Source: Pseudooceanicola nitratireducens (GTDB lineage: Bacteria > Pseudomonadota > Alphaproteobacteria > Rhodobacterales > Rhodobacteraceae). From it: a DNA stretch of 64,000 nucleotides. Where the stretch lies: assembly GCF_900109195.1 (NCBI RefSeq), contig NZ_FNZG01000002.1, positions 566,191 to 630,190 on the forward strand. The letters are read 5' to 3'. Under the pieces are notes generated by a model. It did no database searches. It saw only the letters and a list, made by a program, of their open reading frames with translations, and had not been told where the DNA came from. This document shows positions 1,054 to 45,029 of the stretch, piece by piece; position 1 is the stretch's first letter; each line of letters begins with the position of its first letter. A program made the translations under genes and the position numbers.

Positions 1054-1086
1054 GATCATCTTGCCCAAAATACTCCCGCCGGAGGC
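1054..1086 (-). repeat. dispersed GAGTATTT repeat, copy A
   Basis: Read on the minus strand this is CTCC-GGCG-GGAG (a short stem-loop) running into GAGTATTT, then GGGCAAGATGATC. It ends about 18 bases before the hemF start codon. The same core recurs at 15703, 18639, 24121, 25662, 41111, 42397 and 44966. Confidence 0.75.
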
Positions 1087-1146
1087 GTCCCTTCGTCGAC
1101 GCCTCGCCTGCGTCCCGGTTAATGCGCCCCAGTCAAAGCACCGCGA

Positions 1147-1953
1147 TCAATGCGCGGGTGCGGCGACCGGATCCAGCAGGGTGCGCCCGCCGTCCACGGT
1201 GATCACCTGGCCGGTCATGAAGCTTGATGCGTCGCAGGCCAGGTATTGCGCGGCCTCGGCCAGCTCTCCGGCGGCGGCGATGCGGTTCAGCGGCGTGTGA
1301 TCCTCGATGTCGCTGCGGAACTCGCTGTGGTCCTTCAGCGTGGTCTTCAGGCTCTCGCTCATCACGGACCCGAAGGCCAGGGCGTTCACCCGGATGCGAT
1401 GCGGGGCCAGGGCCACGGCCAGCGACCGGGTCATCTGGTCCAGCGCGGCGGTCGACACCGAATAGGCCAGCAGCTCGGGGTGGGTCCGGCGCGCGGCGAT
1501 GGACGACAGGTTGACGATGGACCCGGCGGGCGCATCTTCGCGGTCGTCTTCCTCGGATTGCTTGATCATGCGCTTGGCGATGGTCTGGCTCAGCCGCAGG
1601 GCGGTCTTCAGGTTCTGCTCCAGCAGCGTCTCGACCGCGTCGTCATCGGGGTTCAGCGGGTCCGACACGATCACCTGCCGCGAGGCGTTCACCAGGATGT
1701 CGACCCGGTCAAAGGCGTCGATGGTGGCCGAAAGCAGGTTGGCGATGGTCAGCTTTTCACGCAGGTCGCCGGCGAAATAGCGGATGTTCTCGCTTTCGGG
1801 GTTTTCGCCCAGCTCGCGGATCAGCGCCTCTTCATCGAGGTCGGCGAAGATGACGTTGGCACCGCGGTCGGCAAAATGCTTGCCGATGGCCAGGCCGATG
1901 CCATTCGCGGCCCCGGTGACGATGGCCGTCTTGCCGGCGATGGAAAAGGACAT
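1147..1953 (-). CDS. SDR family protein with altered active site
   Basis: A 268-residue classical short-chain dehydrogenase/reductase fold. The nucleotide-binding TGxxxGIG motif is at about residues 14-21 (TGAANGIG), with an acidic DLDEE patch after beta-2, LVNAS in place of the usual NNAG, Ser151 (NLSSIAARR), and Tyr164. In the family YxxxK motif the lysine is replaced: residues 164-168 read YSVST. The C-terminal block (FMTGQVITVDGG) is typical. The missing lysine, confirmed at codon level, suggests weak or absent classical dehydrogenase activity. It sits between the RsmC-like gene and hemF in the same direction. The substrate cannot be told from sequence. Confidence 0.85.
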   Translation of the reverse strand: MSFSIAGKTAIVTGAANGIGLAIGKHFADRGANVIFADLDEEALIRELGENPESENIRYFAGDLREKLTIANLLSATIDAFDRVDILVNASRQVIVSDPLNPDDDAVETLLEQNLKTALRLSQTIAKRMIKQSEEDDREDAPAGSIVNLSSIAARRTHPELLAYSVSTAALDQMTRSLAVALAPHRIRVNALAFGSVMSESLKTTLKDHSEFRSDIEDHTPLNRIAAAGELAEAAQYLACDASSFMTGQVITVDGGRTLLDPVAAPAH

Positions 1954-1980
1954 GGGAATGCTCCTTCGGAAGGGTCCGGA

Positions 1981-2994
1981 TCAGGATCTGGGTTTGCGCC
2001 GCAGCTGGCGTGAGGCACCGGGGCCACGGGGCGCGGCGGCCCGGATGACCTTGAAGGCACCGGTTCCGGCGATCTCTTCGTGTTCGGCAAAACACTCGGC
2101 CAGCACGGGTTCATAGGGCAGGTGGCGGTTGGCCACCATCCACAGGGTGCCGCGCGGCGACAGGCTTGCGGCGGCCTTGCGGATAAAGGCACGGCCCAGT
2201 TCGGGGTCGGCCTTGCGTTCGGTATGGAAGGGCGGGTTCATCACCACCGCATCGGCGCGGGTCTGCGGCGACCAGGCGGTGGCATCGGCCCAGTGGAAGC
2301 TGACGCGCGGGTCGGTCAGGTTCAGCCGGGCACAGGCTAGCGCGGCATGGTCGGCCTCGACCAGGTCCACATGGGCGACACCGGCGCGGGTCAGCACCTG
2401 CGCGGTCAGATAGCCCCAGCCGCCGCCCAGGTCGATCACCCGCGACCCCAGCTTTTCCGGCAGAGAGGCCCCCAGCAGCGCCGAGGCCGGGTCGATCCCG
2501 TCGGCGGAAAAGACGCCGGGCGCGGTGTGGAACCCCTGTTCCAAGACCTGCGGGCCGGCCGCCCAGTCGGCGAAATCGCCGCCTTCGAACCAGAACAGTT
2601 TTCCATGCGCCTTGTTCACGGGGCCCGAGACCTCGGCCCGCTTGCGGCAGTCGCGCAGCACGGATTCGATCCCTGCGTCCTTGGTGCCGTCCACGGCGAT
2701 CACGCCGTCGCAGATCTCGGACGCCTGGGCGATCCAGGCGCGGGCCAGTGCCTTGGCGCGGGGCAGCAGGACCAGCACCAGGTCATAGCGCCCCTCGGGC
2801 ACGGTGCGGCAGGTCAGCCCCTGGCGTTCGAAATACTGGTGATCGGGGAAGAACCCGGTGATGACCTCGGTGCGGTCTTTGGGCAGGGCGTCAAGGGGCG
2901 CGCCCGCGCGCGGACCCAGAACGGCGATCCGGCCTTCGGGCAGGGTCAGCCCGCCAGAGGCGAGCGCGATGTCGAGCCTGGGATAAGAGGACAA
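1981..2994 (-). CDS. class I SAM-dependent methyltransferase, RsmC/RlmG-like
   Basis: A 337-residue protein of the two-domain RsmC type, in which an N-terminal methyltransferase-like domain without catalytic motifs precedes a catalytic one. Around residues 185-200 VIDLGGGWGYL is the SAM-binding loop. NPPFH near residue 255 is the NPPY-like signature of enzymes that methylate the exocyclic N2 of guanine in rRNA, and the following LSPRGTLWMVANRHLPYE segment is typical. The likely product is an rRNA m2G methyltransferase, but whether it acts on 16S or 23S cannot be settled here. It begins seven bases after clpS, which suggests co-transcription. The C terminus is basic (RQLRRKPRS). Confidence 0.85.
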   Translation of the reverse strand: MSSYPRLDIALASGGLTLPEGRIAVLGPRAGAPLDALPKDRTEVITGFFPDHQYFERQGLTCRTVPEGRYDLVLVLLPRAKALARAWIAQASEICDGVIAVDGTKDAGIESVLRDCRKRAEVSGPVNKAHGKLFWFEGGDFADWAAGPQVLEQGFHTAPGVFSADGIDPASALLGASLPEKLGSRVIDLGGGWGYLTAQVLTRAGVAHVDLVEADHAALACARLNLTDPRVSFHWADATAWSPQTRADAVVMNPPFHTERKADPELGRAFIRKAAASLSPRGTLWMVANRHLPYEPVLAECFAEHEEIAGTGAFKVIRAAAPRGPGASRQLRRKPRS

Positions 2995-3001
2995 GGCCCC
3001 G

Positions 3002-3379
3002 TTATTCCTTTTCCATGGTGCATTGCAGCGGATGCTGATGCTGTCGGGCGAAATCCATCACCTGGGCGACCTTGGTTTCCGCGATCTCGTGGCTGAAGAC
3101 GCCGACCACGGCGACGCCCTTCTTGTGCACGGTCAGCATGATTTCAAAGGCCTGGGCGTGGGTCATGCCAAAGAACCGCTCCAGCACCGCGACGACGAAT
3201 TCCATCGGGGTGTAATCGTCGTTCAGCAGCAGGACCTTGTACAGCGGCGGGCGTTTCGTCTTGGGCTTGGTGTCGACGATGACCGAGGTGTCGCCCTCGT
3301 CGTCATCGCCCATGCGGTCGCCAATCGACATCACGGGTGCCGTCTTCGAAGACCACGAATATGTCGGCGTCTGGACCAT
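3002..3379 (-). CDS. clpS: ATP-dependent Clp protease adaptor ClpS
   Basis: Adaptor that binds N-degron substrates and hands them to ClpAP. The core is clear: [26 protein letters not shown] carries the conserved NDD(Y/F)TP loop that binds the N-terminal residue, followed by [21 protein letters not shown] and a short C terminus. The 125-residue form given here starts at 3379, where CGGAA lies about 9 bases upstream. ATGs at 3331 and 3313 would give 109 or 103 residues, closer to the usual length, so the true start is uncertain. It is first in the set leading to hemF and is divergent from the HAD gene. Confidence 0.95.
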
Positions 3380-3494
3380 CGAATTTCCGTCTGGATCGCT
3401 TGGGAAGGGTTTCGGGATTTGGCTCTTCTATATAACGTCCGTTCCGAGCTTTGGAAGGGGTGCCGTGTGGACCCGCAGGAAAAGGGGCCCGGGA

Positions 3495-4196
3495 ATGGCG
3501 CAAAATCTGACGGTCGTGGGCTTCGATGCGGATGACACGTTGTGGCACAACGAACGGTTCTTCCAATTGACGCAGGATCGTTTCGCCACGCTTCTGGCCG
3601 ATCATGCCGAGCCTGATCACCTGGCCGAACGGCTTCTTGCGGCCGAGCGTCGCAACATCGGCCACTATGGATTCGGCATCAAAGGCTTCGTGCTGTCGAT
3701 GATCGAAACCGCGCTTGAGGTCACCGACAAGCGCGTCCCGGGCGAGGTGATCGCCGAGCTGATCGCCGCCGGCCAAGAGATGCTGGCCCATCCGATCGAG
3801 CTTTTGCCCCACGCAAGGGACGTCGTCACCCGCGTGGCCGACAGCCACAGGGTCGTGTTGATCACCAAGGGCGATCTGCTGGACCAGGAACGCAAGCTGG
3901 CGCAATCCGGCCTGGGCGATCTGTTCCACGGGGTCGAGATCGTGTCGGACAAGACGCCTGCCACCTATGCCCGGATCTTTGCCAACCACGGCGACGGGGC
4001 AGGGCGCGGCATGATGGTGGGCAATTCGATGAAATCCGACGTGGTCCCGATGATCGAGGCCGGCGGCTGGGGCGTTTATGTCCCCACGGATCTGATCTGG
4101 GCGCTGGAACGGGCCGAGGCCCCGGAAGACCACCCGAAGTATCACCAGATTAACGATCTGTCGGGCCTTCCCGCGATCCTGGATCGACTCGGCTGA
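3495..4196 (+). CDS. HAD family hydrolase
   Basis: A 233-residue haloacid dehalogenase-superfamily phosphatase. Motif I is FDADDTLW (nucleophile Asp11, acid/base Asp13). Motif II is the VLITKGD segment, a following Lys serves motif III, and MVGNSMKSDV is motif IV with its Asp. A helical C1 cap lies between motifs I and II. The ATG at 3495 follows a purine-rich stretch and places motif I at the very N terminus as expected; upstream in-frame starts would overlap clpS. The substrate is unknown. Confidence 0.88.
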   Translation: MAQNLTVVGFDADDTLWHNERFFQLTQDRFATLLADHAEPDHLAERLLAAERRNIGHYGFGIKGFVLSMIETALEVTDKRVPGEVIAELIAAGQEMLAHPIELLPHARDVVTRVADSHRVVLITKGDLLDQERKLAQSGLGDLFHGVEIVSDKTPATYARIFANHGDGAGRGMMVGNSMKSDVVPMIEAGGWGVYVPTDLIWALERAEAPEDHPKYHQINDLSGLPAILDRLG

Positions 4197-4414
4197 ATTT
4201 TCAGCACGGGGGCGGGTGCCGCAATTCTGCCTCAATTGCTTGTTTAGTCTGCAATAAGTTTTGACCAACCAGATCTGCCGTGGGTGATGCGCGCAAAAGC
4301 GCGAATGCCCCTTAAATTCCGGTTTCGTACGCGCCTAAGGATATGTTAGGCTGTGGGTAATTATAAATGGTCAGTCGAATAATCGGCGGCCGAGGCAGTG
4401 AAGTGAGAGGCAAG

Positions 4415-5941
4415 ATGGAGCGGCAGAATAAGCCGACCCGTTGGCGGGCACTCGTATTCTACTTTCTATGTGCGATCTTTGCGCTGGCACCGGGGTTCGG
4501 TCTCCGGGGTGCGGCGGCAGCCCCCTATGCGGCAATGGTGATGGACGCCCGGACGGGCGAGGTATTGCATTCGCGAAACGCGGACGCCCGGTTGCACCCG
4601 GCGTCCCTGACCAAGATGATGACGCTCTACATCGCGTTCGAGGCGGTGAAGAACGGTGAAATCACGCTGGACACCCCGGTGCGCATCTCGCGCAACGCCG
4701 CGGCGGAACCGCCGTCGAAACTGGGGCTGGCCGCGGGTCAGAAGATCAAGCTGCGCTACCTGATCCGTGCGGCGGCGGTGAAATCCGCCAACGACGCCGC
4801 CACCGCGATCGGCGAGGCGCTGGAAGGATCCGAAGCGGCCTTTGCCCGGCGCATGAACCGCACCGCCAAGGCGCTTGGCATGACGCGCACGACCTTCAAG
4901 AACGCCCATGGCCTGACGGAAAGCGGGCATCTGTCCTCGGCCCGGGACATGACGCTGCTGGGCCGTCACCTGCTGTTCGACTACCCCGAATATTACAACC
5001 TGTTCTCCCGCACGCAGACCGATGCGGGGATCAAGCAGGTGAACAACACCAACCGCCGTCTGCTGTCGAACTATCGCGGTGCCGACGGGATCAAGACCGG
5101 CTATACCCGCGCCGCAGGTTTCAACCTTGTGGCGTCGGCCGTGCGGGGCAATGAACGGATCATCGCCACCGTTTTCGGCGGCCGGTCCTCGGCTTCGCGC
5201 AATGCCAAGGTGGCCGAGCTTCTGGACCTGGGCTTCAAACGCGCGCCCTCGAACGCGCCGAACCGCGCGCCCGATGCACCGGTCTATGCCGCCGTCAAGA
5301 CGATCGAGCAGGCGGATGGCAAGATGCGCGCCGCCGGCAAGGTCATTCGCCTGAACACCGCCGTCAGCCGGTCGCTGCGTCCGCAGGCCCGTCCGGGATC
5401 CGTTGCGGCACCGGTTCTCGTGGCCTCGGCCGGGGGGGCGGCGCCGATGACCGACTCCATGGCCGATACGATCGACGCCGTGGTGGCCGAAGTCGCGCAG
5501 AAGGCCAGCCTGATGCCGCAGACCAAGCCCGCCGCGCCGCGCAGCGCCCCGGAAGAGGTCATGGATGCCTCGGCCGCGTCGGCGGCAAACGGCGTTCTGG
5601 TGCCGGTCGCGCGACCCGTGGGCCTGTTCAACCGGATGCTGACCGAGGAAACCACCATGGCCCCGGAAATGCCGCGCGTCGTGACCCGTGTCTCGACCTC
5701 GGGCGGGCGTCACTGGGGGATCAACATCGGCCGCTACAAGTCGCACAACGCCGCCGAACGCGTGCTGTTGCAGACCGCGCTGAAGGAAACCGACACGCTG
5801 GACGGGGCCCTGCGCAAGGTCGTGCGCAAGCCGACCGGCTTTGACGCGAACTTCCTGGGGATGGAGCGTGAGATGGCCGACCTGGCCTGCCGCCGCCTTC
5901 AGGCCCGCAACCAGACCTGTTTCATGATCGGCCCGTCCTGA
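4415..5941 (+). CDS. D-alanyl-D-alanine carboxypeptidase with C-terminal SPOR-like domain
   Basis: Secreted penicillin-binding protein that trims the terminal D-Ala of peptidoglycan stem peptides. With the ATG at 4415 (GAGAGG eight bases before it) the protein is 508 residues. An N-terminal signal segment (LVFYFLCAIFALAPGFG) ends near AAAA. The active-site motifs are SLTK (Ser64, Lys67), SAN (124-126) and KTG (227-229). After the penicillin-binding domain comes a long Ala/Pro-rich linker (about 275-430). A terminal segment beginning RHWGINIGRYKS has the look of a SPOR domain, which binds denuded glycan at the division site. Two cysteines lie near the C terminus. A rho-independent terminator follows. 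Confidence 0.93.
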   Translation: MERQNKPTRWRALVFYFLCAIFALAPGFGLRGAAAAPYAAMVMDARTGEVLHSRNADARLHPASLTKMMTLYIAFEAVKNGEITLDTPVRISRNAAAEPPSKLGLAAGQKIKLRYLIRAAAVKSANDAATAIGEALEGSEAAFARRMNRTAKALGMTRTTFKNAHGLTESGHLSSARDMTLLGRHLLFDYPEYYNLFSRTQTDAGIKQVNNTNRRLLSNYRGADGIKTGYTRAAGFNLVASAVRGNERIIATVFGGRSSASRNAKVAELLDLGFKRAPSNAPNRAPDAPVYAAVKTIEQADGKMRAAGKVIRLNTAVSRSLRPQARPGSVAAPVLVASAGGAAPMTDSMADTIDAVVAEVAQKASLMPQTKPAAPRSAPEEVMDASAASAANGVLVPVARPVGLFNRMLTEETTMAPEMPRVVTRVSTSGGRHWGINIGRYKSHNAAERVLLQTALKETDTLDGALRKVVRKPTGFDANFLGMEREMADLACRRLQARNQTCFMIGPS

Positions 5942-5968
5942 GCCGATCTTGAGACGCGAAATCAAAGA

Positions 5969-5997
5969 AACCGCCGGTCGCAGGATCGGCGGTTTTT
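5969..5997 (+). terminator. rho-independent terminator of the carboxypeptidase gene
   Basis: AACCGCC and GGCGGTT pair around a 12-base loop, and the 3' arm runs into TTTTTC. It lies 28 bases after the stop codon at 5941. Confidence 0.85.
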
Positions 5998-6047
5998 CTT
6001 TGTGCGTGTCGCGGCGGGTTCAGGGCTTGGGCCGTGTGGCTTGGGCC

Positions 6048-6206
6048 TTAAGGCTTGGGATGATCGTCCCATTCCTTTGACAGGATGCGCTGACTGTCGC
6101 CCTCGGGGTCGTCGTATTGGTTCGACTTCACCGTGTAGATGAACCCGATCAGGCCAACGGCCCCAAGGAACAGCGAAATCGGGATGAGCCAGACAAGGAC
6201 GTCCAT
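6048..6206 (-). CDS. ccoS: cbb3-type cytochrome oxidase assembly protein CcoS
   Basis: A 52-residue membrane protein beginning MDVLVWLIPISLFLG. One transmembrane helix covers residues 4-24, followed by the family signature around YTVKSNQYDDPEGDSQRIL. CcoS is needed for cofactor insertion into cbb3 oxidase. It starts 3 bases after the ccoI stop and is the last gene of ccoGHIS. It is short and easily missed by length cut-offs. Confidence 0.93.
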   Translation of the reverse strand: MDVLVWLIPISLFLGAVGLIGFIYTVKSNQYDDPEGDSQRILSKEWDDHPKP

Positions 6207-6209
6207 GGT

Positions 6210-8384: not shown

Positions 8385-8385
8385 G

Positions 8386-10391: not shown

Positions 10392-10454
10392 GGCGGTTCA
10401 CCTGCATTCAACACATTTCGTGCATGCTTGTGGCAGGCGGCGCGGGTCGGAACC

Positions 10455-10468: not shown

Positions 10469-10506
10469 ATCAGATATTTTCGATCTACCTATTTCAGCGT
10501 CGAAAC

Positions 10507-15182: not shown

Positions 15183-15183
15183 T

Positions 15184-15552
15184 TTACTCTTCCTCGTCCC
15201 GATTGCCCTCGTCCTCGGGGGGCTCGGTCAACTCCCGGGCCAGGAAGGCCTCGAAATGATCCAGGTTCACCGGCTCGAACTGGCCAAAGCCCTGCATCCA
15301 GACCGAGGCATCGCGCAGCGCGTCGGGCTCCAGCTTGCACCATTTCACGCGGCCGCGCTTTTCCTGGCTGATCAGTCCCGCGCGGGTCAGGATCGTCAGG
15401 TGCTTGGAAATCGCCGCCAGCGACATGTCGAAGGGTTCGGCCACGTCGGTCACCGCCATGTCGTCTTCCAGCAACATGGTCAGGATCGCCCGGCGGGTCG
15501 GATCGGCAAGGGCGGCAAAGGCACTGTCTAGCGGGCTGCTCATGGCTGCCAT
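15184..15552 (-). CDS. ArsR/SmtB-family winged-helix repressor
   Basis: A 122-residue ArsR-type regulator. The DNA-binding core runs from LDSAFAALADPTRRAILTMLLE to FDMSLAAISKHLTILTRAGLI, followed by the beta-hairpin wing (KRGRVKWCKL). The classical metal-binding ELCVCDL motif is absent (AVTDVAEPFDM stands there), so it is probably not a metal sensor. The C terminus is acidic. The ATG at 15552 or 15543 is preferred over a TTG at 15579 that falls inside an operator. Two inverted repeats upstream suggest autoregulation. Confidence 0.85.
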   Translation of the reverse strand: MAAMSSPLDSAFAALADPTRRAILTMLLEDDMAVTDVAEPFDMSLAAISKHLTILTRAGLISQEKRGRVKWCKLEPDALRDASVWMQGFGQFEPVNLDHFEAFLARELTEPPEDEGNRDEEE

Positions 15553-15702: not shown

Positions 15703-15724
15703 CATCATCTTGCCAAAAATACTC
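15703..15724 (-). repeat. dispersed GAGTATTT repeat, copy B
   Basis: On the minus strand it reads GAGTATTTTTGG followed by CAAGATGATG, the core of the dispersed repeat. It lies in the gap between the ArsR-family gene and atpI, about 150 bases upstream of the former. The stem-loop half is replaced by an A/T run here. Confidence 0.7.
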
Positions 15725-17935: not shown

Positions 17936-18493
17936 ATGCGTTTTGCTGTTTTCACCGCCGCCCTGGTCGCCGCCTCTCCGGCTGCTGCCGCATCGGGTCC
18001 GTTCTTTTCGCTGCGCAACACCGATTTCATCGTGCTGCTAGCCTTCCTGGTCTTCCTGGCCGTCCTGATCTACTTCAAGGTTCCGTCGATCCTTGCCGGT
18101 CTGCTGGACAAGCGCGCCGAGCAGATCACGTCCGAGCTGAACGAAGCCAAGTCGCTGCGCGAAGAAGCCCAGGCTCTGCTGGCCTCCTACGAGCGCAAGC
18201 AGAAGGACGTTCAGGCCCAGGCGGATCGCATCGTCGAAGCCGCGAAGAAAGAGGCATCCGACGCCGCGGCCCAGGCCAAGCTGGATCTGGAAGCCTCGAT
18301 CAAGCGCCGCCTGGCGGCTGCCGAAGAGCAGATCGCCTCGGCCGAAGCCTCGGCTGTGAAAGAGGTCAAGGACCGCGCCGTGACTGTCGCCGTGGCTGCT
18401 GCCCGCGAAGTCATCGCCTCGCAGATCAAGGCGGCCGACGCCAACAAGATGATCGACGACGCCATCGCGACCGTCGAGCAGAAGCTGCACTAA
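17936..18493 (+). CDS. atpF: F0F1 ATP synthase subunit b
   Basis: A 185-residue stalk subunit with an N-terminal leader-like segment ([18 protein letters not shown]), a membrane helix ([20 protein letters not shown]), and a coiled coil to the end. Four bases separate it from b'. It closes the F0 operon and is followed by a strong terminator. The F1 genes are not in the window. Confidence 0.95.
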
Positions 18494-18638: not shown

Positions 18639-18724
18639 GGGGGCAGGGGGCTGTCTGCCCCCTGCGCCACGACGGCCGGGGCCGTCATGGCTACCCCCGA
18701 GGATATTTCCGGCAAGAGGATGGT
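18639..18724 (+). repeat. dispersed GGATATTT repeat, copy C (long form)
   Basis: Long form with two hairpins. GGGGGCAG/CTGCCCCC is at 18639-18662 and GACGGCC/GGCCGTC is at 18671-18686. Then come CCCCCGAGGATATTT, two bases, and GGCAAGAGGATG. The same architecture recurs at 44966-45029. Here it lies between the atp terminator and the convergent 3' end of cobO. Confidence 0.8.
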
Positions 18725-18746: not shown

Positions 18747-19355
18747 TCAGAACTCGACGCCGATTTGGGCCTTGATGCCGGAGCGGAAGGGGTGCTTGAT
18801 CAGCTCCATTTCAGTGACGAGGTCGGCGGCCTCGATCAGGTCTTCCTTGGCGTTGCGGCCGGTCAGCACGACATGGGTCATGTCCGGTTTTTCCGTGGTG
18901 AGGAAGCGGACGACCTCGTTGATGTCGAGGTAGTCGTAGCGCAGGGCGATGTTGATTTCGTCCAGAAGCACCATGCGGTTGGCGGGGTCGCGGATCAGTT
19001 CCTTGGCCTTTTCCCAAGCGGCCTGGGCCATTTCGGTGTCGCGGGTGCGGTCCTGGGTTTCCCAGGTGAAGCCCTCGCCCATGGTGTGGAAGGCGCAGGT
19101 GTCGGAGAATTTCGACAGGATCAGGTCGCGTTCGCCGGTGGACATGCCGCCCTTGATGAACTGCACCACGGCGCATTGCATGTCATGGGCGATGCAGCGG
19201 AAGATCATGCCAAAGGCGGCCGAGCTTTTGCCCTTGCCCTTGCCGGTATGGACGATGATCAGGCCCTTTTCGTCGGTCTTGGTGGCCATGATCTTGTCAC
19301 GGGCGACCTTTTTCTTTGCCATCTTCTCGGCGTGGCGGTCGGGATCCTGGGTCAT
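18747..19355 (-). CDS. cobO: cob(I)yrinic acid a,c-diamide adenosyltransferase
   Basis: A 202-residue CobA/CobO/BtuR-type ATP:corrinoid adenosyltransferase that attaches the 5'-deoxyadenosyl ligand to Co(I). The P-loop is GKGKGKSS (residues 38-45, the family's unusual GxGKGKS form), followed by VVQFIKGG, the FHTMGEGFTWETQD segment, and LLDEINIAL as the Walker B-like region. It is the first of several cobalamin genes in this stretch. The C terminus IKAQIGVEF is family-typical. Confidence 0.97.
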   Translation of the reverse strand: MTQDPDRHAEKMAKKKVARDKIMATKTDEKGLIIVHTGKGKGKSSAAFGMIFRCIAHDMQCAVVQFIKGGMSTGERDLILSKFSDTCAFHTMGEGFTWETQDRTRDTEMAQAAWEKAKELIRDPANRMVLLDEINIALRYDYLDINEVVRFLTTEKPDMTHVVLTGRNAKEDLIEAADLVTEMELIKHPFRSGIKAQIGVEF

Positions 19356-21881: not shown

Positions 21882-24800
21882 TTAGCCCTTGCCCGCCCGC
21901 AGGTCTTCGATCCGGGCGCGCGCGGAATTTGAACGCGGGGACCAGAGGCCGCGGTCGATGGCCTCTTGCAGGCGATCGGCGATCTCCGCCAAGGCGGCGG
22001 GGTTGGCATCGGCGATGAAGGCACGGGTGTCCTCGTCTTCCAGGAAGGCCTGTTCCACCATGTCGAAGTGGTGGTTCTTTACCGCGCCCGTCGTGGCCGA
22101 GAAGGCGAAAAGGTAATCGACCGTCGCGGCGATCTCGAACGCGCCCTTGTAGCCGTGACGCTTGATCCCTTCGATCCACTTGGGATTCACCACGCGGGAC
22201 CGCAGCACGCGGGCGATTTCTTCGTCCAGGGTGCGGATCACGGGACGTTCGGGGCGGGAATGGTCGTTGTGATAGATCGGGCGCGCCTGACCCTGAAGAT
22301 GCTGGATCGCGGCCGAGGCCCCGCCTTCGAATTGATAGTAGTCGTCGCTGTCCAGCAGGTCGTGTTCGCGGTTGTCCTGGTTCTGGACGATGGCTTCGGT
22401 CTGGGACAGGCGTTGTTCCAGGCCTGCGCGGTCGGCCTCGCCCTCGGTCTTGGCCCCATAGGCGTAGGAGCCCCAGGTCAGGTAGGCGCGGCCCAGATCG
22501 GCGGGGTCGGACCAGAGCCGTTCGTCGATCATCGCCTGAAGGCCCGCGCCATAGGCCCCGGGTTTAGAGCCGTAGATGCGATGCGCGGCCTCGCCCGCGC
22601 GGATGCGGGCGGCGGCGGGGTTCTGGTCTTCGGATTCCTCCAACGCCTGGACGGCGCGGGCGGCGCTGTCGAACAGCGCGATCAGCTGGGGGAAGGCATC
22701 GCGGAAAAAGCCCGAGATGCGCAGCGTGACGTCGACGCGGGGTCGGCCAAGGACGCCTTCGGGGATGATCTCGAACCCGGTCACGCGGCGGTTGGCGCTG
22801 TCCCAGGTTGGCTTCACGCCCATCAGGGCCAAGGCCTGGGCGATATCGTCGCCGCCGGTGCGCATGTTGGCGGTGCCCCAGGCGGTCAGCAGCAGGGTGC
22901 GGGGATAATCGCCGTGGTCTTGAAGGTGGCGGTCGATCAGCATGTTGGCGGATTTCCAGCCCAGTTTCCACGCGGTCGGGGTGGGCACGGCCCGGCTGTC
23001 GACGCTGAAAAAGTTGCGTCCCGTGGGCAGAGTGTCAAGGCGGCCACGGGTCGGCGCACCGCTAGGTGCCGGGGCGACGAAGTGCCCTGCAAGGGCGGTG
23101 AGAAGGCCCGCGCCTTCGTCGGGGCCGCAGTTGGCCAGGGTCGGGGCGATATGGTCGTGGATTTCGGACAGGACTGCGCTGCTCGCCGGTCCTATCAGAC
23201 CCGTCTCGCCCTGCGGGGCGTCGAGCAGGGAGATGGCCAGTTCTTCCAGCCGTTCGACCGTATCGCCATGGCTCCGCCAGGGATCGGTTGAGACCTGGGC
23301 CAGGGCATCGGGTTTGAGCCCGGTCCAGGGGGCGGACATGTCGCAATCGAGCGGGTCGAAATCCAGGCCCAGATCGGCGGCCAGCGCGCGGGGGAGGGAG
23401 GCGTCCTTGCCCTTGCCATCGCCGCGCGGGATCCGGGTGAGGGCGATCAGCAGGTCGCGGAACAGCCGGCCCTGGGGCGATTGGCCGAAGATATGGAGGC
23501 CGTCGCGGATCTGCGCCTCTTTCAGCTCGCAGAGCCAGGCGTCAAGTTTGGCAAGGTCGGTGTCGGCATCACCGGTGAAGCCCGCATCCTGATCAACACC
23601 GGTCGCCTGCGTCAGCGACAGGATTTCCTTGCGCAGATGGGTGATGCGGCGGGGATCGACGCCGGCGGCCTCGTAATATTCGTCCACCAGTGCTTCGAGA
23701 TCGCGCAGGGGGCCATAGCTTTCGGCGCGGGTCAGTGGCGGCGTCAGGTGGTCGATGATCACCGCCTGCGCCCGGCGCTTGGCCTGGGTGCCTTCGCCTG
23801 GGTCGTTGACGATGAAGGGGTAGATATGCGGCACGGGGCCAAGGACGGCCTCGGGGATACAGGTTTCCGACAGGGCGATGGCCTTGCCGGGCAGCCATTC
23901 GAGGTTGCCGTGCTTGCCCATGTGGATCAGCGCGTGGGCGCCCCAGACTTCGCGCAGGGCGATGTAGAAGGCGAGGTAATTGTGCGGCGGAACGAGATCG
24001 GGGGAGTGGTAGGTCTCTTCCGGGTCGATGTTGTAGCCGCGGGCGGGCTGGACGCCGACCATGACATTGCCGTGGGGATGCAGCGAGAGCTTGAAGCCCT
24101 TGCGCGTCGTGGGGGCCGGGGCCTCCGGCGGGAGTATTTCGGGCAAGATGATCGAGGGATCATCGCCGGGGATCTCCGTCAGGAAGGGGTCATCTTCGGG
24201 CGCGCCCCATTGGGTGGTGATCTTTTCCTTCACGTCCCAGGGCAGGGCGTTGAAGTGGTCGAGATAGGTGGAATGGGGCAGGAAAGTGCCACCCTGACGA
24301 TCCGCGCGGTCGGTGAGGTAATTGGTGGGGCCGGAGGTGATTTCCGCCATCAGCGCGGCACTGTCGGAGGGGGCGTTTTCGACGCTGTAGCCCGCGTCGC
24401 GCAAGAGGTGCAGGGCATGCACGGTGGCGGCGGGCGTGTCGAGGCCGACGCCATTGGCCAGGCGGCCGTCCTTATTGGGGTAGTTCGCGAGGATGATCGC
24501 GGCGCGACGCTCGGCAGGCGCGGTGCGGCGCAGGCGTGTCCAATTGGCGGCGAGGCGGGTGACAAAGTCGATGCGGTCGCCACGGGTCTGCCAGCCGGCG
24601 ATCGGGCATTGGGTGGCCTCGTCGAAGTAGACCTCGCCCTTGAAGGCCACGGCGCGCGACAGGATGCGGCCATCGACCTCGGGCAGAGCCACGTTCATGG
24701 CGATGTCGCGGGCGGAGAGGCCGGTGAGGGTTTCGGACCATGTGTCCTCGGAGGTGGCCGAGAGGACAACCTGGAAGACCGGGCTTTGGTTGGCGGAAGC

Positions 24801-25649
24801 CGCGGTCAGAGGGTTCGAGGCGCTGTCGTCACCATGTGGGGAGCCGACGGCGAAGCTGGTGAGGTTCAGGATCAGTTCGGGGCGCGTCTCAGTGAACAGG
24901 TGGTCGAGCGTGGCGGCCGAGACCGGGTCCTTGAGCGAGGAGACAAACAGCGGCAGCGGGTTGAGGCCGGCGCGCAGCAGGGTTTTCGTCAGGCGGTTGA
25001 CGGGGCCGAGGTCACCGGCCTGCAGGAGCGCGCGGTAGAAGACAATGGGCACCGTGGGGGCATCGGGCGTCCAGGCGCTGCGCAGGGTGGAGAGGTCGGG
25101 ATCCGTCTGACCGGGCCAGTAGAGCCCGGCCTTGAGCAGGGGGCGTGCGGGGGCGGGGCGGTCGGTGCCCGCGATCATCGCACGCGCCTGGGCGAGGAAG
25201 GTGGTGGCATTGTCCGGCCCGCCTTCGACCAGCGCCTGCCAGAGCGCGGTGTAGTCGTCTTCGTCAACGGTGGAGAGCGCACGCAGGTCGGCGTCGGGTT
25301 TGTCGTCGCCCGGCAGGGCGGCGAAGGGCACCCCGACTTCGCGCAGGCGGGCGGCGTATTGTTCCAGCCCGTATTTCCAATAGGCCGCACCGCCGAGGAT
25401 CCGCGCCACCACCAGTTTCGACTTTGTTGCCGTCTGATCGAGGTGCAGGTCCACCGACATCGGGTGCTGCAGGTTGGTCAGATTGGCCAGCCGCATGTCG
25501 GGCGGGGCGTCCATGACCGACCGGGCATGGCTGAGGGCGGCCAGTTCGGTGTCGGCGGCAGAGATCACCACCAGGTCGGCGGGCGTCTGGTTCAGGTCGA
25601 CCGCTTCGTCGTCGTCGATCCGTCCGGGCGTGGCAGCGAGAAGGTGCAT
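21882..25649 (-). CDS. cobN: aerobic cobaltochelatase subunit CobN
   Basis: The large (1255-residue) chelatase subunit that inserts Co2+ into hydrogenobyrinic acid a,c-diamide with CobS and CobT, which are not in this window. Family blocks include VVARILGGAAYWKYGLEQYA near the N terminus, GNVMVGVQPARGYNIDPEETYHSPDLVPPHNYLAFY, HALIHMGKHGNLEWLPGKA with metal-ligand-type His residues, and the C-terminal FEIAATVDYLFAFSATTGAVKNHHFD. Residues 500-510 (IILPEILPPEA) are encoded by a copy of the dispersed repeat, in a variable loop between WGAPEDDPF and the GNV block. A GNAT gene follows 3 bases after the stop. Confidence 0.97.
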   Translation of the reverse strand: MHLLAATPGRIDDDEAVDLNQTPADLVVISAADTELAALSHARSVMDAPPDMRLANLTNLQHPMSVDLHLDQTATKSKLVVARILGGAAYWKYGLEQYAARLREVGVPFAALPGDDKPDADLRALSTVDEDDYTALWQALVEGGPDNATTFLAQARAMIAGTDRPAPARPLLKAGLYWPGQTDPDLSTLRSAWTPDAPTVPIVFYRALLQAGDLGPVNRLTKTLLRAGLNPLPLFVSSLKDPVSAATLDHLFTETRPELILNLTSFAVGSPHGDDSASNPLTAASANQSPVFQVVLSATSEDTWSETLTGLSARDIAMNVALPEVDGRILSRAVAFKGEVYFDEATQCPIAGWQTRGDRIDFVTRLAANWTRLRRTAPAERRAAIILANYPNKDGRLANGVGLDTPAATVHALHLLRDAGYSVENAPSDSAALMAEITSGPTNYLTDRADRQGGTFLPHSTYLDHFNALPWDVKEKITTQWGAPEDDPFLTEIPGDDPSIILPEILPPEAPAPTTRKGFKLSLHPHGNVMVGVQPARGYNIDPEETYHSPDLVPPHNYLAFYIALREVWGAHALIHMGKHGNLEWLPGKAIALSETCIPEAVLGPVPHIYPFIVNDPGEGTQAKRRAQAVIIDHLTPPLTRAESYGPLRDLEALVDEYYEAAGVDPRRITHLRKEILSLTQATGVDQDAGFTGDADTDLAKLDAWLCELKEAQIRDGLHIFGQSPQGRLFRDLLIALTRIPRGDGKGKDASLPRALAADLGLDFDPLDCDMSAPWTGLKPDALAQVSTDPWRSHGDTVERLEELAISLLDAPQGETGLIGPASSAVLSEIHDHIAPTLANCGPDEGAGLLTALAGHFVAPAPSGAPTRGRLDTLPTGRNFFSVDSRAVPTPTAWKLGWKSANMLIDRHLQDHGDYPRTLLLTAWGTANMRTGGDDIAQALALMGVKPTWDSANRRVTGFEIIPEGVLGRPRVDVTLRISGFFRDAFPQLIALFDSAARAVQALEESEDQNPAAARIRAGEAAHRIYGSKPGAYGAGLQAMIDERLWSDPADLGRAYLTWGSYAYGAKTEGEADRAGLEQRLSQTEAIVQNQDNREHDLLDSDDYYQFEGGASAAIQHLQGQARPIYHNDHSRPERPVIRTLDEEIARVLRSRVVNPKWIEGIKRHGYKGAFEIAATVDYLFAFSATTGAVKNHHFDMVEQAFLEDEDTRAFIADANPAALAEIADRLQEAIDRGLWSPRSNSARARIEDLRAGKG
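24121..24153 (+). repeat. dispersed GAGTATTT repeat, copy D, inside cobN
   Basis: GCCTCC-GGCG-GGAGTATTT, two bases, GGCAAGATGATC, nearly identical to copies A and G, but lying antisense within cobN. The minus strand reads it in frame as IILPEILPPEA (residues 500-510), so the gene stays open. Confidence 0.85.
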
Positions 25650-25661: not shown

Positions 25662-25716
25662 ACGCGCCTTGGGGCGCGTGCCTTCGGCGAGGATATTTGG
25701 GGAAAACCAAAGAGGG
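25662..25716 (+). repeat. dispersed GGATATTT repeat, copy E (diverged)
   Basis: ACGCGCC-TTGG-GGCGCGT hairpin (25662-25679), then CCTTCGGCGAGGATATTT followed by GGGGAAAACCAAAGAGG. The hairpin-plus-GGATATTT layout matches copies C and H, but the distal part has diverged. It occupies the gap between the cobN start and the upstream GNAT gene. Confidence 0.65.
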
Positions 25717-29130: not shown

Positions 29131-29182
29131 GTGTCTGGCTCCTTCGCCGTCATCCCCGACAGCGGTTTGGGTTTCGCTTCAC

Positions 29183-29376
29183 ACGGCCGGTCTCCTGGCT
29201 GGCGGGTCGTCGCGGGCCTGTGCCTTCCCGACCCGCAGGGGCCAGTGGCGTCTTTCAGGCACGCTCTCCGCTTTACAGTCGCGGGGGCGGCTGCGGCTGT
29301 GGACCCCGATGTGGGTCATCCATTCCGCATTCCCGATTATCCCCGGACGCTTTGCGCCCATGTGGGGAACCGTATC
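29183..29376 (-). promoter_or_regulatory. cobalamin (B12) riboswitch controlling cbtB-cbtA
   Basis: On the minus strand the conserved parts appear in order. GGTTCCCC (29364-29371) pairs with GGGGATAATCGGG. The B12-box region GCCGCCCCCGCGACTGTAA is at 29273-29291, GCCACTGGC at 29241-29249, GGGAAGG at 29223-29229, and AGCCAGGAGACCGGCC closes at 29185-29200. Such elements shut off expression when adenosylcobalamin is plentiful. About 50 bases separate its 3' end from the cbtB start, room for an RBS-sequestering switch. Confidence 0.93.
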
Positions 29377-29590
29377 TGGATCTTTTCGGCTGTGGCGGGC
29401 GGTCAGGTCAAGGGAAAATGCAGATGCAGCATAGGAAAATGCACCTGTGCAGCGGGCCGAAACGATCCCCAGGGTGCGATATCTTGTGGGTAACTGGCGG
29501 GATCACGCTATATCCTGCGGGTCAGCGTTGACTCGGGGCAGGGTGCGGATCACTCTGGGTAGATCACCTTGGAATCAGGCGGCCTGCTAC

Positions 29591-36521: not shown

Positions 36522-36645
36522 GGCCCGCCCTCGTGTCCCGGATCCGCATCCCTTGGTTGGGGCGAAGTCCTAGACCAATGCGGGGCAGGCCGGAAGGATT
36601 TTTGCTTCTCCGGCCCGCGTTTGGCGTGTCACATGCGCCGGGCGC

Positions 36646-38241: not shown

Positions 38242-38245
38242 TCCC

Positions 38246-41064: not shown

Positions 41065-41110
41065 TGCTCTCCGCCTGGTGTCCCACGTCCGGGGGCTTCA
41101 CATCCCGCAG

Positions 41111-41132
41111 CATCATCTTGCCAGAAATACTC
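41111..41132 (-). repeat. dispersed GAGTATTT repeat, copy F
   Basis: On the minus strand it reads GAGTATTT, CT, GGCAAGATGATG. It sits in the 115-base gap between the cobH fusion and cobL, oriented against both genes. Confidence 0.75.
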
Positions 41133-41179
41133 ACCGGCCCGGCATCCGCCGCCCGCGTGCAACGATCAGAGGTCCGCGC

Positions 41180-42382
41180 ATGAGCACCCCCTGGCTGCAT
41201 ATCGTTGGCATCGGCGAAGACGGCATGGACGGGCTGACCCCCGCCACCCGCGCGGTGGTCGAGGCCGCCGAGGTCATCATCGGCGGCGACCGTCATCACG
41301 CGTTGTCAGATACCGTCACGGCGGAACGTATCGCCTGGCCCTCGCCCTTCGATGCGCTGATCGAACTCCTGACCTCGCATCGGGGTCGCCGGGTTGTGGT
41401 GCTGGCCACCGGGGATCCGCTGTGGTTCTCGGTCGGGGCGCGGATCGGACGGTCGATCCCGGCGGATGAGATCCTGTATCACCCGCAGCTGTCGGCCTTT
41501 CAGCTGGCCTCGGCCCGGATGGGCTGGTCCATGGCGGACCTGGAAACGCTGACCGTGCATGGCCGCCCGGTCGAGCAGATGATCGCCTTCATCCAGCCCG
41601 ATGCGCGGCTCTTGATCCTGACCACCGGGGCCGAGACCCCGGGCCAGATCGCGCGCTTCCTGGTGGAACGCGGGTTCGGACAATCGCGGATGGCCGTCCT
41701 TGCCAACATGGGCGGCGAGAAAGAGCTGCGCTTTGACGGGCTGGCGGAAAGCTGGGATCACGATGTCCCGGCCTTCAACACGCTGGCGGTCGAATGTATC
41801 GCCGCACCCGAGGCCGCGCTGATGCCGCGCGTGCCGGGGCTGGCGGATGATCTTTTTGTCTCGGACGGGACAATGACGAAACGCGAGGTCCGGGCCGTCA
41901 CCCTGGCCAAGCTGATGCCGATGCGCGGTGCGCTGTTGTGGGACGTGGGCACGGGCTGTGGCTCGGTCGCGGTGGAATGGATGCGCGGTGCGCGCTATGC
42001 CCGGGCCACCGGGATCGAACCCCGCGCAGACCGCCGCGACATGGCCGCCCGGAATGCGCTGGCGCTTGGCGTGCCCGGTCTCCGCCTGGTTGAAGGCACC
42101 GCACCCGAGGCCTTCGCAGGGCTTGAGCGTCCCGACGCGGTCTTCATCGGCGGCGGGCTGAGCGAGGCCGTTTTCGACGCCGCCTGGGCGCAGCTGAAAC
42201 CTCTGGGCCGGCTGGTCGCCAATGCGGTCACCATCGAAAGCGAACAGGCCATGCTGGCGCTGCGCAAAAAGCACGGAGGAGAGCTGGCCAAGATCCAGGT
42301 CGCCCGTGCCGAAGCCGTCGGGCGTCTGTCTGGCTGGAAACCGGCCATGGCCGTGACGCAGTGGAGCCTGGTGAAACGATGA
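41180..42382 (+). CDS. cobL: bifunctional precorrin-6Y C5,15-methyltransferase / C12-decarboxylase CobL
   Basis: A 400-residue fusion of CbiE-like (N) and CbiT-like (C) domains. It methylates C-5 and C-15 and removes the acetate carboxyl at C-12. The N-terminal SAM site is IVGIGEDGMDGLTPA, with ATGDPLWFSVGARI and LTVHGRP further on. The C-terminal class I methyltransferase loop is LLWDVGTGCGSVAVEWMR, preceded by GTMTKREVRA. The ATG at 41180 is chosen over an in-frame start at 41078 because the family begins at WLHIVGIG. Confidence 0.97.
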   Translation: MSTPWLHIVGIGEDGMDGLTPATRAVVEAAEVIIGGDRHHALSDTVTAERIAWPSPFDALIELLTSHRGRRVVVLATGDPLWFSVGARIGRSIPADEILYHPQLSAFQLASARMGWSMADLETLTVHGRPVEQMIAFIQPDARLLILTTGAETPGQIARFLVERGFGQSRMAVLANMGGEKELRFDGLAESWDHDVPAFNTLAVECIAAPEAALMPRVPGLADDLFVSDGTMTKREVRAVTLAKLMPMRGALLWDVGTGCGSVAVEWMRGARYARATGIEPRADRRDMAARNALALGVPGLRLVEGTAPEAFAGLERPDAVFIGGGLSEAVFDAAWAQLKPLGRLVANAVTIESEQAMLALRKKHGGELAKIQVARAEAVGRLSGWKPAMAVTQWSLVKR

Positions 42383-42396
42383 CGGCACGTGTGGAT

Positions 42397-42429
42397 GCCT
42401 CCTGCGGGAGTATTTCCGGCAAGATGATG
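42397..42429 (+). repeat. dispersed GAGTATTT repeat, copy G, providing the cobI start
   Basis: GCCTCC-TGCG-GGAGTATTT, two bases, GGCAAGATGATG. It fills the gap after the cobL stop (42382). Its final ATGATG supplies both candidate start codons of cobI. Confidence 0.85.
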
Positions 42430-43125
42430 GGGAAACTCTATGGCGTGGGTCTGGGGCCGGGCGATCCCGATCTGATGACCCTGCGGGCGGCGCGGCTGAT
42501 CGGGGCGGCCCGGGTGGTGGCCTATCCGGCGCTGGCGGGCGGTGAGAGTTTCGCGCGGTCGATCGCGGCGGATCTGATCGCCGCGGAGGCGCGGGAAATC
42601 GTCATGGACGTGCCCATGACCGTGGACCGCGCCCCGGCGCAGGCGGCCTATGACAAGGGCGCGGCGGAAATCGCGGCGGCGCTTGAGGCGGGCGAGGATG
42701 TCGTCTGCCTCTGCGAGGGGGATCCGTTCTTCTACGGGTCCTTCATGTATGTCTTTGCGCGGCTGTCGGACCGGTTCGAGGTTGAAGTGGTGCCCGGGGT
42801 AACCTCCGTTTCGGCCTGCGCGGCGCGGGCCGGCCGGCCGCTGGTGGCCCGGAACGAGAGGCTGACGGTCCTGCCCGGACCCTTGCCAGAGGCCGAATTG
42901 CGCGACCGGATCGGCGGAGCCGAGGCGGTGGCGATCATGAAGGTGGGCCGCCACATGGGCAAGATCCGCGGGGTCTTTGCCGATCTGGGTCTTCTGGACC
43001 GGGCGGTCTATGTGGCGCGTGTGGGCCTGCCGGACGAGGTGGTCTGCCCGCTGGCCGAGGCACCCGAAGCCGCGCCCTATTTCTCGATGATCCTGATGAA
43101 CAAGGGGGATGACCCATGGCTGTGA
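42424..43125 (+). CDS. cobI: precorrin-2 C20-methyltransferase CobI
   Basis: A 233-residue SAM-dependent tetrapyrrole methylase acting on precorrin-2 to give precorrin-3A. The signature GVGLGPGDPDLMTLRA is at residues 6-21, with LCEGDPFFYGSFMYVFARL, EVVPGVTSVSACAARAGRPL and ARVGLPDEVV further on. The start is one of two ATGs at 42424/42427, both within repeat copy G. Upstream in-frame starts lie inside the cobL coding end. It overlaps the next gene by 10 bases. Confidence 0.95.
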   Translation: MMGKLYGVGLGPGDPDLMTLRAARLIGAARVVAYPALAGGESFARSIAADLIAAEAREIVMDVPMTVDRAPAQAAYDKGAAEIAAALEAGEDVVCLCEGDPFFYGSFMYVFARLSDRFEVEVVPGVTSVSACAARAGRPLVARNERLTVLPGPLPEAELRDRIGGAEAVAIMKVGRHMGKIRGVFADLGLLDRAVYVARVGLPDEVVCPLAEAPEAAPYFSMILMNKGDDPWL

Positions 43126-45017
43126 CGCCTGTTGTGATGGTGGTGTCTTCGGCCGGTGCGCCGGTGGCGCGGCGGGTTGCGGATGCGCTTGGCGTGCCGC
43201 TCTGGGGGCGCGAGGGGCGCGTTGACGGCGCGGATGAGACGTTCCCGAATGCGCTGCATTTCGCACGGGACATGTTCGCCGCCGGGCGTCCGGTGATCGG
43301 CGTCTGCGCCAGCGGGATTCTGGTGCGGGCGGTGGCGCCGCTTTTGGGGTCGAAGATGGCCGAACCGCCGGTTGTCTCGGTCAGCGATGACGGGGCCGTG
43401 GTCGTACCGCTTCTGGGCGGGCACCGGGGGGGCAACCGTCTGGCGCGGCAGATCGCGGATGTGCTGGGCGCGGTGCCGGCGGTGACCACGGCGGGCGACA
43501 TCGCCATCGGCGTGGCGCTGGATGCCCCGCCCGAGGGCTACCGCCTGGCCAATCGCGGCGATGCCCAGGCGGCAATGGCCGCGCTGGTCAATGGCGCGGG
43601 GCTGGTGGTGAAGGGGCCGAACATCTTTGGCGTGGAGCCGAAAGAGGGCGCGGGCGCGGTCGAGCTGCGCGTGGTCGAGCAACCCTGGGAGGGCGGGCCG
43701 GACCGATTGGTCTATCACCCGCAGCGCTTCTGTATCGGCGTGGGGTGTGCCCGGAATGCGGAGCCCGAGGAGCTTTGGACCCTGGTCCAGGCGTCGCTGC
43801 GCGAAGCGAATATCGCGCCGGGGGCCGTGGCGGGTGTGGGCACGATTGCGCTTAAGGCCGATGAGCCGGCGATCCTGGCACTGGCGCAGCGGCTGGACGT
43901 GCCCCTGCGGCTGTTCTCGGCCGAGGAGCTTGAGGCGCAGGCGGATTATCTGGCCAACCCCTCCGACGTGGTCTTTGCCGAGGTCGGCTGCCACGGTGTA
44001 TCCGAGGGCGCGGCGCTATGCCTTGCGGGACCGGAGAGCCATTTCGAGGTGACCAAGCGCAAGACGGCCAATACCACCTGTGCCATTGCCGCGGCCCCCG
44101 CGCCGGTGACCAAATTCACCGGGCGTCCGCGCGGGAAACTGTCGGTCGTGGGGATCGGGCCGGGGCAGGCCAGCTGGCGCACGCCCGAGGTGTCGCAGTT
44201 GATCTCCCAGGCCGAGGAACTGGTCGGCTATGGCTTGTATATCGATCTGCTGGGGCCGCTGGCAGCGGGCAAGCATCGGGCGGATTTCCCCCTTGGCGGG
44301 GAAGAGGACCGCTGTCGCTATGCGCTGGAACGCGCGGCCGAGGGGCGCAACGTGGCGCTGGTTTGTTCGGGCGATGCGGGCATCTACGCCATGGGCGCGC
44401 TGGTGTTCGAGCTGCTGAACCGCAGCGACGACACCGGCGTCAGCGACGCTGCGCGGCGGGTCGAGGTGGTCTGTTCGCCGGGCGTATCCGCCTTGCAGGC
44501 GGCGGCGGCGCGGGCGGGCGCGCCATTGGGCCACGATTTCTGCGCCATCTCGCTAAGCGATCTGCTGACGCCCCGGGACGACATCCTGCGGCGGCTGCGG
44601 GCGGCGGCCGAAGGCGATTTCGTCATCGCCTTCTACAACCCGGTCTCCAAGACGCGGCGCACCCTGCTGGCCGAGGCGCGCAAGATCCTGTTGCAGCATC
44701 GCCCGGCGGATACGCCGGTGATGCTGGCGACCTCGCTTGGGCGACCGGAAGAAAACCTGCGCTACCGGCGGCTGGACGAGCTGGAGGTGGACGAGGTCGA
44801 CATGCTGACCGTCGTGCTGATCGGATCGTCCAATTCGCAGCTGGCCATGCTGGGCGAGGGGCCACGCATGTACACACCGCGCGGCTATGCGCGGCGGATC
44901 GATGGCGACCTCGTGGAGGTCGGCAACCGTCACATCGGATCAGGAGCCCTGTGGGAGCCGGAAGAGGGGGGCACTGCCCCCGTCCGGCCCGAGGCCGGAC
45001 TCCCCCGGGATATTTGA
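43116..45017 (+). CDS. cobJ: fusion: CbiG-like domain plus precorrin-3B C17-methyltransferase CobJ
   Basis: A 633-residue two-part protein. Residues 1-330 are CbiG-like: an N-terminal part with IGVCASGILVRAVAPLLGSK and VPLLGGHRGGNRLA, and a C-terminal part RFCIGVGCARNAE ... VFAEVGCHGVSEGAAL. Residues 341-600 are CobJ (KLSVVGIGPGQASWRTPE, CSGDAGIYAMGALVFELL, CSPGVSALQAAAARAGAPLGHDFCAISLSDLLTP, FYNPVSKTR). CbiG belongs to the anaerobic route, CobJ to the aerobic one. The last 18 residues are encoded by repeat copy H, whose ATATTTGA core gives the stop codon. Confidence 0.95.
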   Translation: MAVTPVVMVVSSAGAPVARRVADALGVPLWGREGRVDGADETFPNALHFARDMFAAGRPVIGVCASGILVRAVAPLLGSKMAEPPVVSVSDDGAVVVPLLGGHRGGNRLARQIADVLGAVPAVTTAGDIAIGVALDAPPEGYRLANRGDAQAAMAALVNGAGLVVKGPNIFGVEPKEGAGAVELRVVEQPWEGGPDRLVYHPQRFCIGVGCARNAEPEELWTLVQASLREANIAPGAVAGVGTIALKADEPAILALAQRLDVPLRLFSAEELEAQADYLANPSDVVFAEVGCHGVSEGAALCLAGPESHFEVTKRKTANTTCAIAAAPAPVTKFTGRPRGKLSVVGIGPGQASWRTPEVSQLISQAEELVGYGLYIDLLGPLAAGKHRADFPLGGEEDRCRYALERAAEGRNVALVCSGDAGIYAMGALVFELLNRSDDTGVSDAARRVEVVCSPGVSALQAAAARAGAPLGHDFCAISLSDLLTPRDDILRRLRAAAEGDFVIAFYNPVSKTRRTLLAEARKILLQHRPADTPVMLATSLGRPEENLRYRRLDELEVDEVDMLTVVLIGSSNSQLAMLGEGPRMYTPRGYARRIDGDLVEVGNRHIGSGALWEPEEGGTAPVRPEAGLPRDI

Positions 45018-45029
45018 GGCAAGAGGATG
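44966..45029 (+). repeat. dispersed GGATATTT repeat, copy H (long form), at the cobJ/cobM junction
   Basis: GGGGGCACTGCCCCC hairpin (within 44966-44981), GTCCGGCC-CGA-GGCCGGAC hairpin (44982-45000), then TCCCCCGGGATATTT, GA, GGCAAGAGGATG. It provides the C-terminal codons and stop of cobJ as well as AAGAGG and the ATG of cobM. The layout is the same as copy C. Confidence 0.85.

Follow-up and report, generated by a model that had tools for sequence, protein, structure and literature searches.

The DNA considered here is a 64,000-nucleotide stretch of the Pseudooceanicola nitratireducens genome (contig NZ_FNZG01000002.1, positions 566,191 to 630,190; hereafter the window), and it carries eight copies of a short dispersed repeat with a hairpin head and a conserved tail. 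A preliminary description had placed eight copies with a common core in this region, and all eight places read as it gave them. Seven consist of a head followed by GAGTATTT or GGATATTT, two free bases (NN) and a tail, GGCAAGATGAT or GGCAAGAGGATG, just as had been described. The copy at 25662 shares the head type and GGATATTT, but its tail is GGGGAAAACCAAAGAGGG, and the described core spelling does not extend to it. Spelling falls into two linked classes, GAG with ATGAT and GGA with AGGAT, while 25662 belongs to a sister class. In window coordinates, the copies are:

1054-1086, minus strand: GAG-class copy with its core at 1054-1075 and a short head at 1076-1086, in the gap from hemF (152-1036) to an SDR gene (1147-1953).
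15703-15724, minus strand: GAG-class core following a hairpin and T-run, close to an ArsR-type gene (15184-15543).
18639-18724, plus strand: GGA-class copy with a long head, further hairpins and core at 18701-18722, between an atpF-type gene (17936-18493) and cobO (18747-19355).
24121-24153, plus strand: GAG-class copy (short head 24121-24131, core 24132-24153), antisense within cobN (21882-25649).
25662-25716, plus strand: sister-class copy, head, GGATATTT and tail GGGGAAAACCAAAGAGGG, with the core from 25691.
41111-41132, minus strand: GAG-class core with no evident hairpin head, before cobL (41180-42382).
42397-42429, plus strand: GAG-class copy (short head 42397-42407, core 42408-42429) at the cobL/cobI junction.
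44966-45029, plus strand: GGA-class copy with a long head and core at 45008-45029, whose last bases form the start codon of a cobM-type gene (45027-45803).

The dispersed repeat is real and much larger than these eight copies. Across the whole genome (G000, 4,063,489 bases), GAGTATTTNNGGCAAGATGA was found at 62 sites with up to two mismatches allowed, 53 of them exact, nine with one mismatch and none with two, and the reversed pattern gave no match. GGATATTTNNGGCAAGAGGATG occurs at 44 exact sites. A combined pattern identified 111 sites at no more than one mismatch, as compared to 0 for its reversed control, bearing out the expectation that the core would be more frequent than chance. The sister tail class, in which GGATA[TC]TT is followed after a few bases by AAACCAAAGA, recurs 16 times in 0.82 Mb of loci from the same genome, so the tail at 25662 represents this class and not a chance match. 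Its members were read at window positions 25691-25716 and in L126, L133, L139, L140, L147, L153, L169, L172, L176, L181, L204 and L215 (L-numbers denote loci and G-numbers genomes); their heads are of the same kinds as in the main classes, and tail-to-tail sister pairs are present in L133 and L169. Nine GGA-class copies are near-identical over a further ∼35 nt upstream, which indicates recent copying for some members of the family. Most copies are singlets, with only eight close inverted (tail-to-tail) pairs among 112 sites. On the G160 chromosome such pairs are far more common, with starts ∼34-48 bp apart.

The short stem-loop that had been proposed is supported by covariation. Among 125 short heads of the form GCCTXCGGCGY, picked at no more than three differences from GCCTCCGGCGG, the X/Y pair (5:11) is C-G in 106, T-A in 14 and G-C in four, and pair 1:9 is G-C in 120 and C-G in four, leaving one mismatch for each pair. 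The pair sets to which 1:9 and 5:11 belong overlap, and therefore not all of these pairs can form simultaneously. Long heads have a hairpin rich in G and a C-run ahead of the core, often with a second hairpin whose sequence is free; at the cobM site (44966) this second hairpin is wholly different in P. nitratireducens and G154, and it pairs in both. Some heads are a hairpin plus T-run, and other copies have no evident hairpin. The core-side C-run of long heads matches the G-run of the hairpin 5′ arm in length in 98 of 132 cases (41 on average and 57 at most under permutation). Of 59 asymmetric arms, 21 are mirrored (for example, in L124, L162, L206 and L209) and none is directly repeated. A mirrored arm before the core would suit a pyrimidine triplex, with low-complexity arms or pairing with the tail GAG or GGA as alternatives.

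Genes were called with a simple codon-usage caller built for the analysis (coding 86%). By these calls, 105 of 106 copies in the genome are intergenic, and the exception is the copy antisense within cobN. Tandem gaps hold 39 copies oriented along the genes and 28 against them, and convergent gaps hold 33; divergent gaps make up 26.7 of the 104.6 kb of intergenic DNA, yet they hold only five. Orientation relative to the genes is similar in other genera (40 along, 27 against). When split by head, short heads in tandem gaps point mostly in the gene direction (19 versus 6), and long heads do not (14 versus 16). The reported association with cobalamin genes, for six of the eight copies, holds for several copies in the window but is not specific, as copies elsewhere lie beside unrelated genes; the adjacency follows from the window itself being a cobalamin region. 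The genes between close copies, inspected by eye from the starts of their proteins, look like ordinary chromosomal genes, with no mobiliser candidate among them. Read in the same manner, the cobL/cobI copy could extend cobI N-terminally if translated in frame from an overlapping start codon (42361-42429), and so could the copy in L217. At L152 3999-4020, the dut start codon apparently lies inside a copy's tail, an arrangement also found at cobM in the window.

Outside this genome, the P. nitratireducens spelling was found at no more than one mismatch in 43 of 149 genomes of the order, several with a single match, and the exact GAG pattern was present at 114 or more loci when one genome per species was counted. 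Among the matches listed (L009-L088), nearly all titles are Rhodobacteraceae-type, with one Burkholderiales and one Alphaproteobacteria metagenome-assembled genome. A 33-base query matched 31 plasmid records, 20 of them over at least 80% of its length, and no record had more than three matching places; the best records are from Rhodobacterales, and the weakest are probably chance. Searches of phages yielded 11 weak partial matches to the query, none over 80%.

Tail spelling differs between species. The comparison was made within one genus (22 species), in which P. nitratireducens uses GGCAAGATGAT, with a tail T at base 20 in 57 of 59 GAG copies. G153 uses GGAAAGATGAA in 49 of 52 copies, G163 uses GGCAAGATGAA in all matches listed, and GCCAGATGA and GGAAAGATGA account for most of the matches listed for G160 and G162, respectively, the latter genome having up to 266 matches at no more than two mismatches. 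Sampled copies from G155, G152 and G164 have still other tail spellings. Small samples suggest GCCTGGTGATG or similar for G165, G158 and G151, GACAAGGTGAAG or similar for G166 and G169, and GCATATTT..GGCAAGATGAAG for G167, while G159 is nearly element-free in the spellings tried.

These dialects occur at shared positions. Counterparts of the copies at 1054, 15703, 24121, 41111 and 42397 exist in G154, G157, G150 or G163; these are spelled GATGAA and mostly carry other spacer bases, meaning that the two free bases drift. Specifically, the 1054 copy has orthologues in G154 and G163 and is absent in G150; the 15703 copy has orthologues in G157 and G150, with the G154 copy differing by one change; and the 41111 copy has orthologues in G154, G157 and G163, all of them paired tail to tail with a second copy that P. 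nitratireducens lacks. The class at a site can change too, because the gap corresponding to 18639 holds a GAG-class copy with a different head in G154, and G157 carries a GGCAAG-type tail near the place matching 25662. Sites can also be filled or empty. At cobL/cobI, where 17 of 30 retrieved loci were read, nine are filled (some diverged), seven are cleanly empty and one is ambiguous. At dfp/dut, seven of 22 species have an intact copy, two a decayed copy and 13 none. The cobN copy is present in 11 of the 13 species read, namely P. nitratireducens and ten others, some diverged, and is lacking in G159 and G160 (the unaligned G162 locus was left out). Across these three sites, 18 of 23 copies from ten species match, by our reading, the dialect of their own genome; this count sets aside G161, G168 and G149, for which the dialect is not known, and G144, a diverged copy from another genus. 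Fresh transposition or copying from a single master does not easily give shared positions together with spacer drift and a changed tail. A reader of shifting specificity, combined with selection or transfer drive at each site, does account for dialects at shared positions.

The copies are also accompanied by a one-sided strand skew. These analyses set aside copies in inverted pairs within 320 bp, and per-copy tests used only copies with enough flank (96 from P. nitratireducens, 42 from other genera). On the element strand, (G−C)/(G+C) on the 3′ side is +0.105 at 150-500 bp (95/106 positive), +0.065 at 1-2 kb and +0.034 at 3-4 kb, as compared to +0.051 beside the copy on the 5′ side, dropping to about zero. 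The excess over the genome mean at third codon positions is similar whichever strand the gene is on, and AT skew shifts to T. The excess 100-400 bp 3′ of a copy hardly depends on gene layout (95 copies over four layouts: +0.169, +0.148, +0.214 and +0.178), and in control gaps without a copy (from G163, G153 and G162) it is within 0.03. Calculated per copy over 0.1-2 kb, the P. nitratireducens skew is +0.134 on the 3′ side (87/96 positive) and +0.058 on the 5′ side, with the 3′ value larger in 70/96 (p = 4e-9). Corresponding values are +0.079 and +0.031 in other genera (42 copies, p = 0.012) and +0.049 and 0.000 in G163 (27 copies, p = 0.017), where nothing is seen beyond 4 kb. In a small sample of the sister class, 3′ skew is positive in 10 of 13 and 5′ skew in 7 of 12. 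The 3′ skew is thus strong in P. nitratireducens and weaker or not significant in some relatives.

Skew also goes with the presence of a copy. It is +0.30 in cobI in the nine species with the cobL/cobI copy and +0.14 in the seven without, and +0.28 versus +0.16 in the gene after cobI, as compared to +0.17 versus +0.19 in upstream cobL; the within-species 3′-minus-5′ contrast gives p = 0.006. In dut, the skew is +0.221 where the dfp/dut copy is intact (seven species), −0.024 where it is decayed (two) and −0.029 where it is absent (13). Over six window sites, the difference between species with and without the copy is +0.10 on the 3′ side (5/6 positive) and +0.008 on the 5′ side (2/6).

To explain these features, we propose, with a probability of roughly 0.4, that the element is a recognition site for a trans-acting factor and that a DNA process, likeliest DNA exchange, starts 3′ of its tail. 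The hairpin head, TATTT, two free bases and the 10-12-base tail would together form the site, and the factor would evolve fast, differ among species and co-evolve with the spelling of the site. The process would begin at the site and proceed toward the 3′ side of the tail, exposing the strand that carries the element as single-stranded DNA over ∼3-4 kb, with a frequency sufficient to produce a G- and T-rich (C-to-T) footprint. Cytosine deamination in single-stranded DNA leaves G and T enrichment on one strand. Exchange, as packaging or uptake of adjoining DNA, would in addition propagate the matching spelling and maintain uniformity among copies, and a nick followed by strand displacement would be a close alternative process. 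Of this picture, the dialects, their shared positions, the independence from gene layout, the one-sided skew and its link to copy presence are observations, and the trans-acting factor, the strand exposure and the exchange are inferences.

Several observations weigh against this proposal. No reader factor was found, and an uptake signal would be expected in more than ∼100 copies per genome. Five of the 23 dialect-scored copies are off-dialect (two in G152 and one each in G164, G167 and G150, the last decayed). Only 16 of 27 G163 copies have a positive 3′ excess, and the asymmetry is not significant in G162 (+0.100 on the 3′ side, +0.067 on the 5′ side, 29 copies, p = 0.19) or G153 (+0.028 and +0.005, 20 copies, p = 0.39). 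Some excess returns at 6-9 kb in G162, and in copy-dense blocks of G154, G157 and G150 (11 copies) it is spread far out and upstream. The control gaps come from other genomes (G163, G153 and G162), and upstream dfp is also raised where the copy is present (+0.126 versus −0.016), with p = 0.057 for the dfp/dut contrast. Since the species are related and no kinship correction was applied, the comparisons of carriers with non-carriers suggest an association rather than prove it.

Among known systems, DNA uptake sequence dialects are nearest in behaviour (PMC3630211), and REPINs nearest in form (PMC3116915). Like the Neisseriaceae uptake sequences, the element is a short motif that is uniform within a species, differs in dialect between relatives, occupies permissive intergenic sites and forms inverted pairs. 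Unlike them, it is present in 111 copies plus a sister class in P. nitratireducens, and up to 266 matches in G162, where uptake genomes have thousands; it also has hairpin heads and free spacer bases, and the likeness would be one of pattern.

The strongest competing explanation, which we consider unlikely but take seriously, is a miniature mobile element resembling repetitive extragenic palindromic (REP) sequences or REPINs and moved in trans by an unrecognised enzyme, with dialects arising from enzyme co-evolution and turnover at preferred sites and the skew from insertion into pre-skewed DNA. A small non-autonomous mobile element had been one of the two original suggestions, and filled and empty orthologous sites and the nine near-identical longer copies do fit it, as do the hairpins, intergenic location and tail-to-tail pairs. 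As described in PMC3116915, REP sequences and REPINs with their RAYT transposases share these short intergenic hairpins and inverted pairs, and are lineage-specific in sequence. However, the element is mostly found as singlets in place of inverted doublets, and copies common to several species are re-spelled: positions are kept, even in cobN, while tail and spacer bases change, and sites with an absent or decayed copy have lower skew. Neither the re-spelling nor the one-sided skew is explained by mobility alone. A search for the RAYT/Y1 transposase domain PF01797 gave no match at E≤0.001 in the 99% complete genome (control genomes were positive, 5/14), though a fold-level or distant relative is possible. 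The REP tag GTAG/CGTC, as given in the title of PMC3733652, was not seen by eye at the ends of 106 aligned copies.

Alternatively, a nickase might cut the element strand at the tail, with synthesis displacing that strand 3′-wards for a few kb, as at a rolling-circle or transfer origin. A hairpin followed by a short fixed sequence would fit such a site, and the displaced strand and side agree with the skew, yet no relaxase or initiator is linked to the copies (none was sought) and copy uniformity is left unexplained; we regard this as improbable. A resemblance of the GGA core to T-DNA borders was dropped because the strand and side that they would displace disagree with the skew.

Slightly more doubtful still is a packaging start for gene transfer agents (GTAs), in which capsids would be filled from the element 3′-wards. 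GTAs are found in the same order, the ∼4 kb cargo of RcGTA is near the footprint length (PMC6854486), and a review describes packaging peaks in R. capsulatus that are frequent and low, possibly reflecting low-level specificity (PMC11841831). No packaging motif or conserved start sequence is reported, and GTA small terminases seem to be without a DNA-binding domain. PF13547, the GTA marker, occurs in 21 of 22 genomes of the genus, including the nearly element-free G159, and therefore does not discriminate carriers; GTA genes were accordingly set aside as the reason for element presence or absence. With such terminases and the marker in G159, exchange stands as the leading but unproven process for the recognition-site proposal.

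A transcription terminator or RNA element of the 3′ untranslated region is harder to credit. Like intrinsic terminators, many copies have a GC-rich hairpin and then T-rich bases, some follow a canonical hairpin and T-run, and the short heads are mostly gene-directed. Unlike terminators, however, the element has little gene-direction preference overall, none in its long heads, a conserved 10-12-base tail past the T stretch, species dialects, an antisense copy kept in cobN, and a skew that is equal across all gene layouts. The structured RNA module that had been offered as the second possibility is not favoured on similar grounds, and an Rfam covariance-model search assigned no family to any copy; its only gathering-level match was a cobalamin riboswitch at window positions 29168-29389 (minus strand, 103 bits), with four weaker matches up to E=5, none of them at a copy. 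This negative, and a literature search of open-licence papers in which no description of the element was found, agree with the earlier statement that no named family is known for it; the main text of PMC2267715 and PMC3733652 does not mention Rhodobacter, Roseobacter, Silicibacter or Paracoccus. Overall, the interpretation in the preliminary description is partly supported.

Finally, replication strand bias with copies oriented along replication is very improbable and was dropped, because, although copy strand agrees with local skew in 88/106 copies (a weaker 84/126 in other genera) and some contigs carry mainly one orientation, a bias that remains in P. nitratireducens, the signal is highest next to the copy and has faded by 4 kb, and copy strand is random with respect to 20-kb skew in G163 (15/30) and G153 (8/21).

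Rhodobacterales are abundant marine bacteria in which gene exchange is thought to be largely sequence-blind. A bolder form of the recognition-site proposal, which we consider quite unlikely, is that the copies are chromosome-wide polar start sites for horizontal DNA exchange in this order, whether by loading of DNA into gene transfer agents or by its uptake from them or from free DNA. Each site would send or receive a single defined strand covering the few kb 3′ of it, writing the skew, and dialects would act as mating barriers. If the recognition-site proposal is true, a dispersed dialect site with a one-sided mutation footprint would point toward a hidden DNA process, would be a candidate barrier to interspecies exchange, and would offer an example from nature, inside a single genus, of co-evolution between a family of sites and its reader. 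Should the element turn out to be a mobile repeat, its footprint would still pose a directly testable question.

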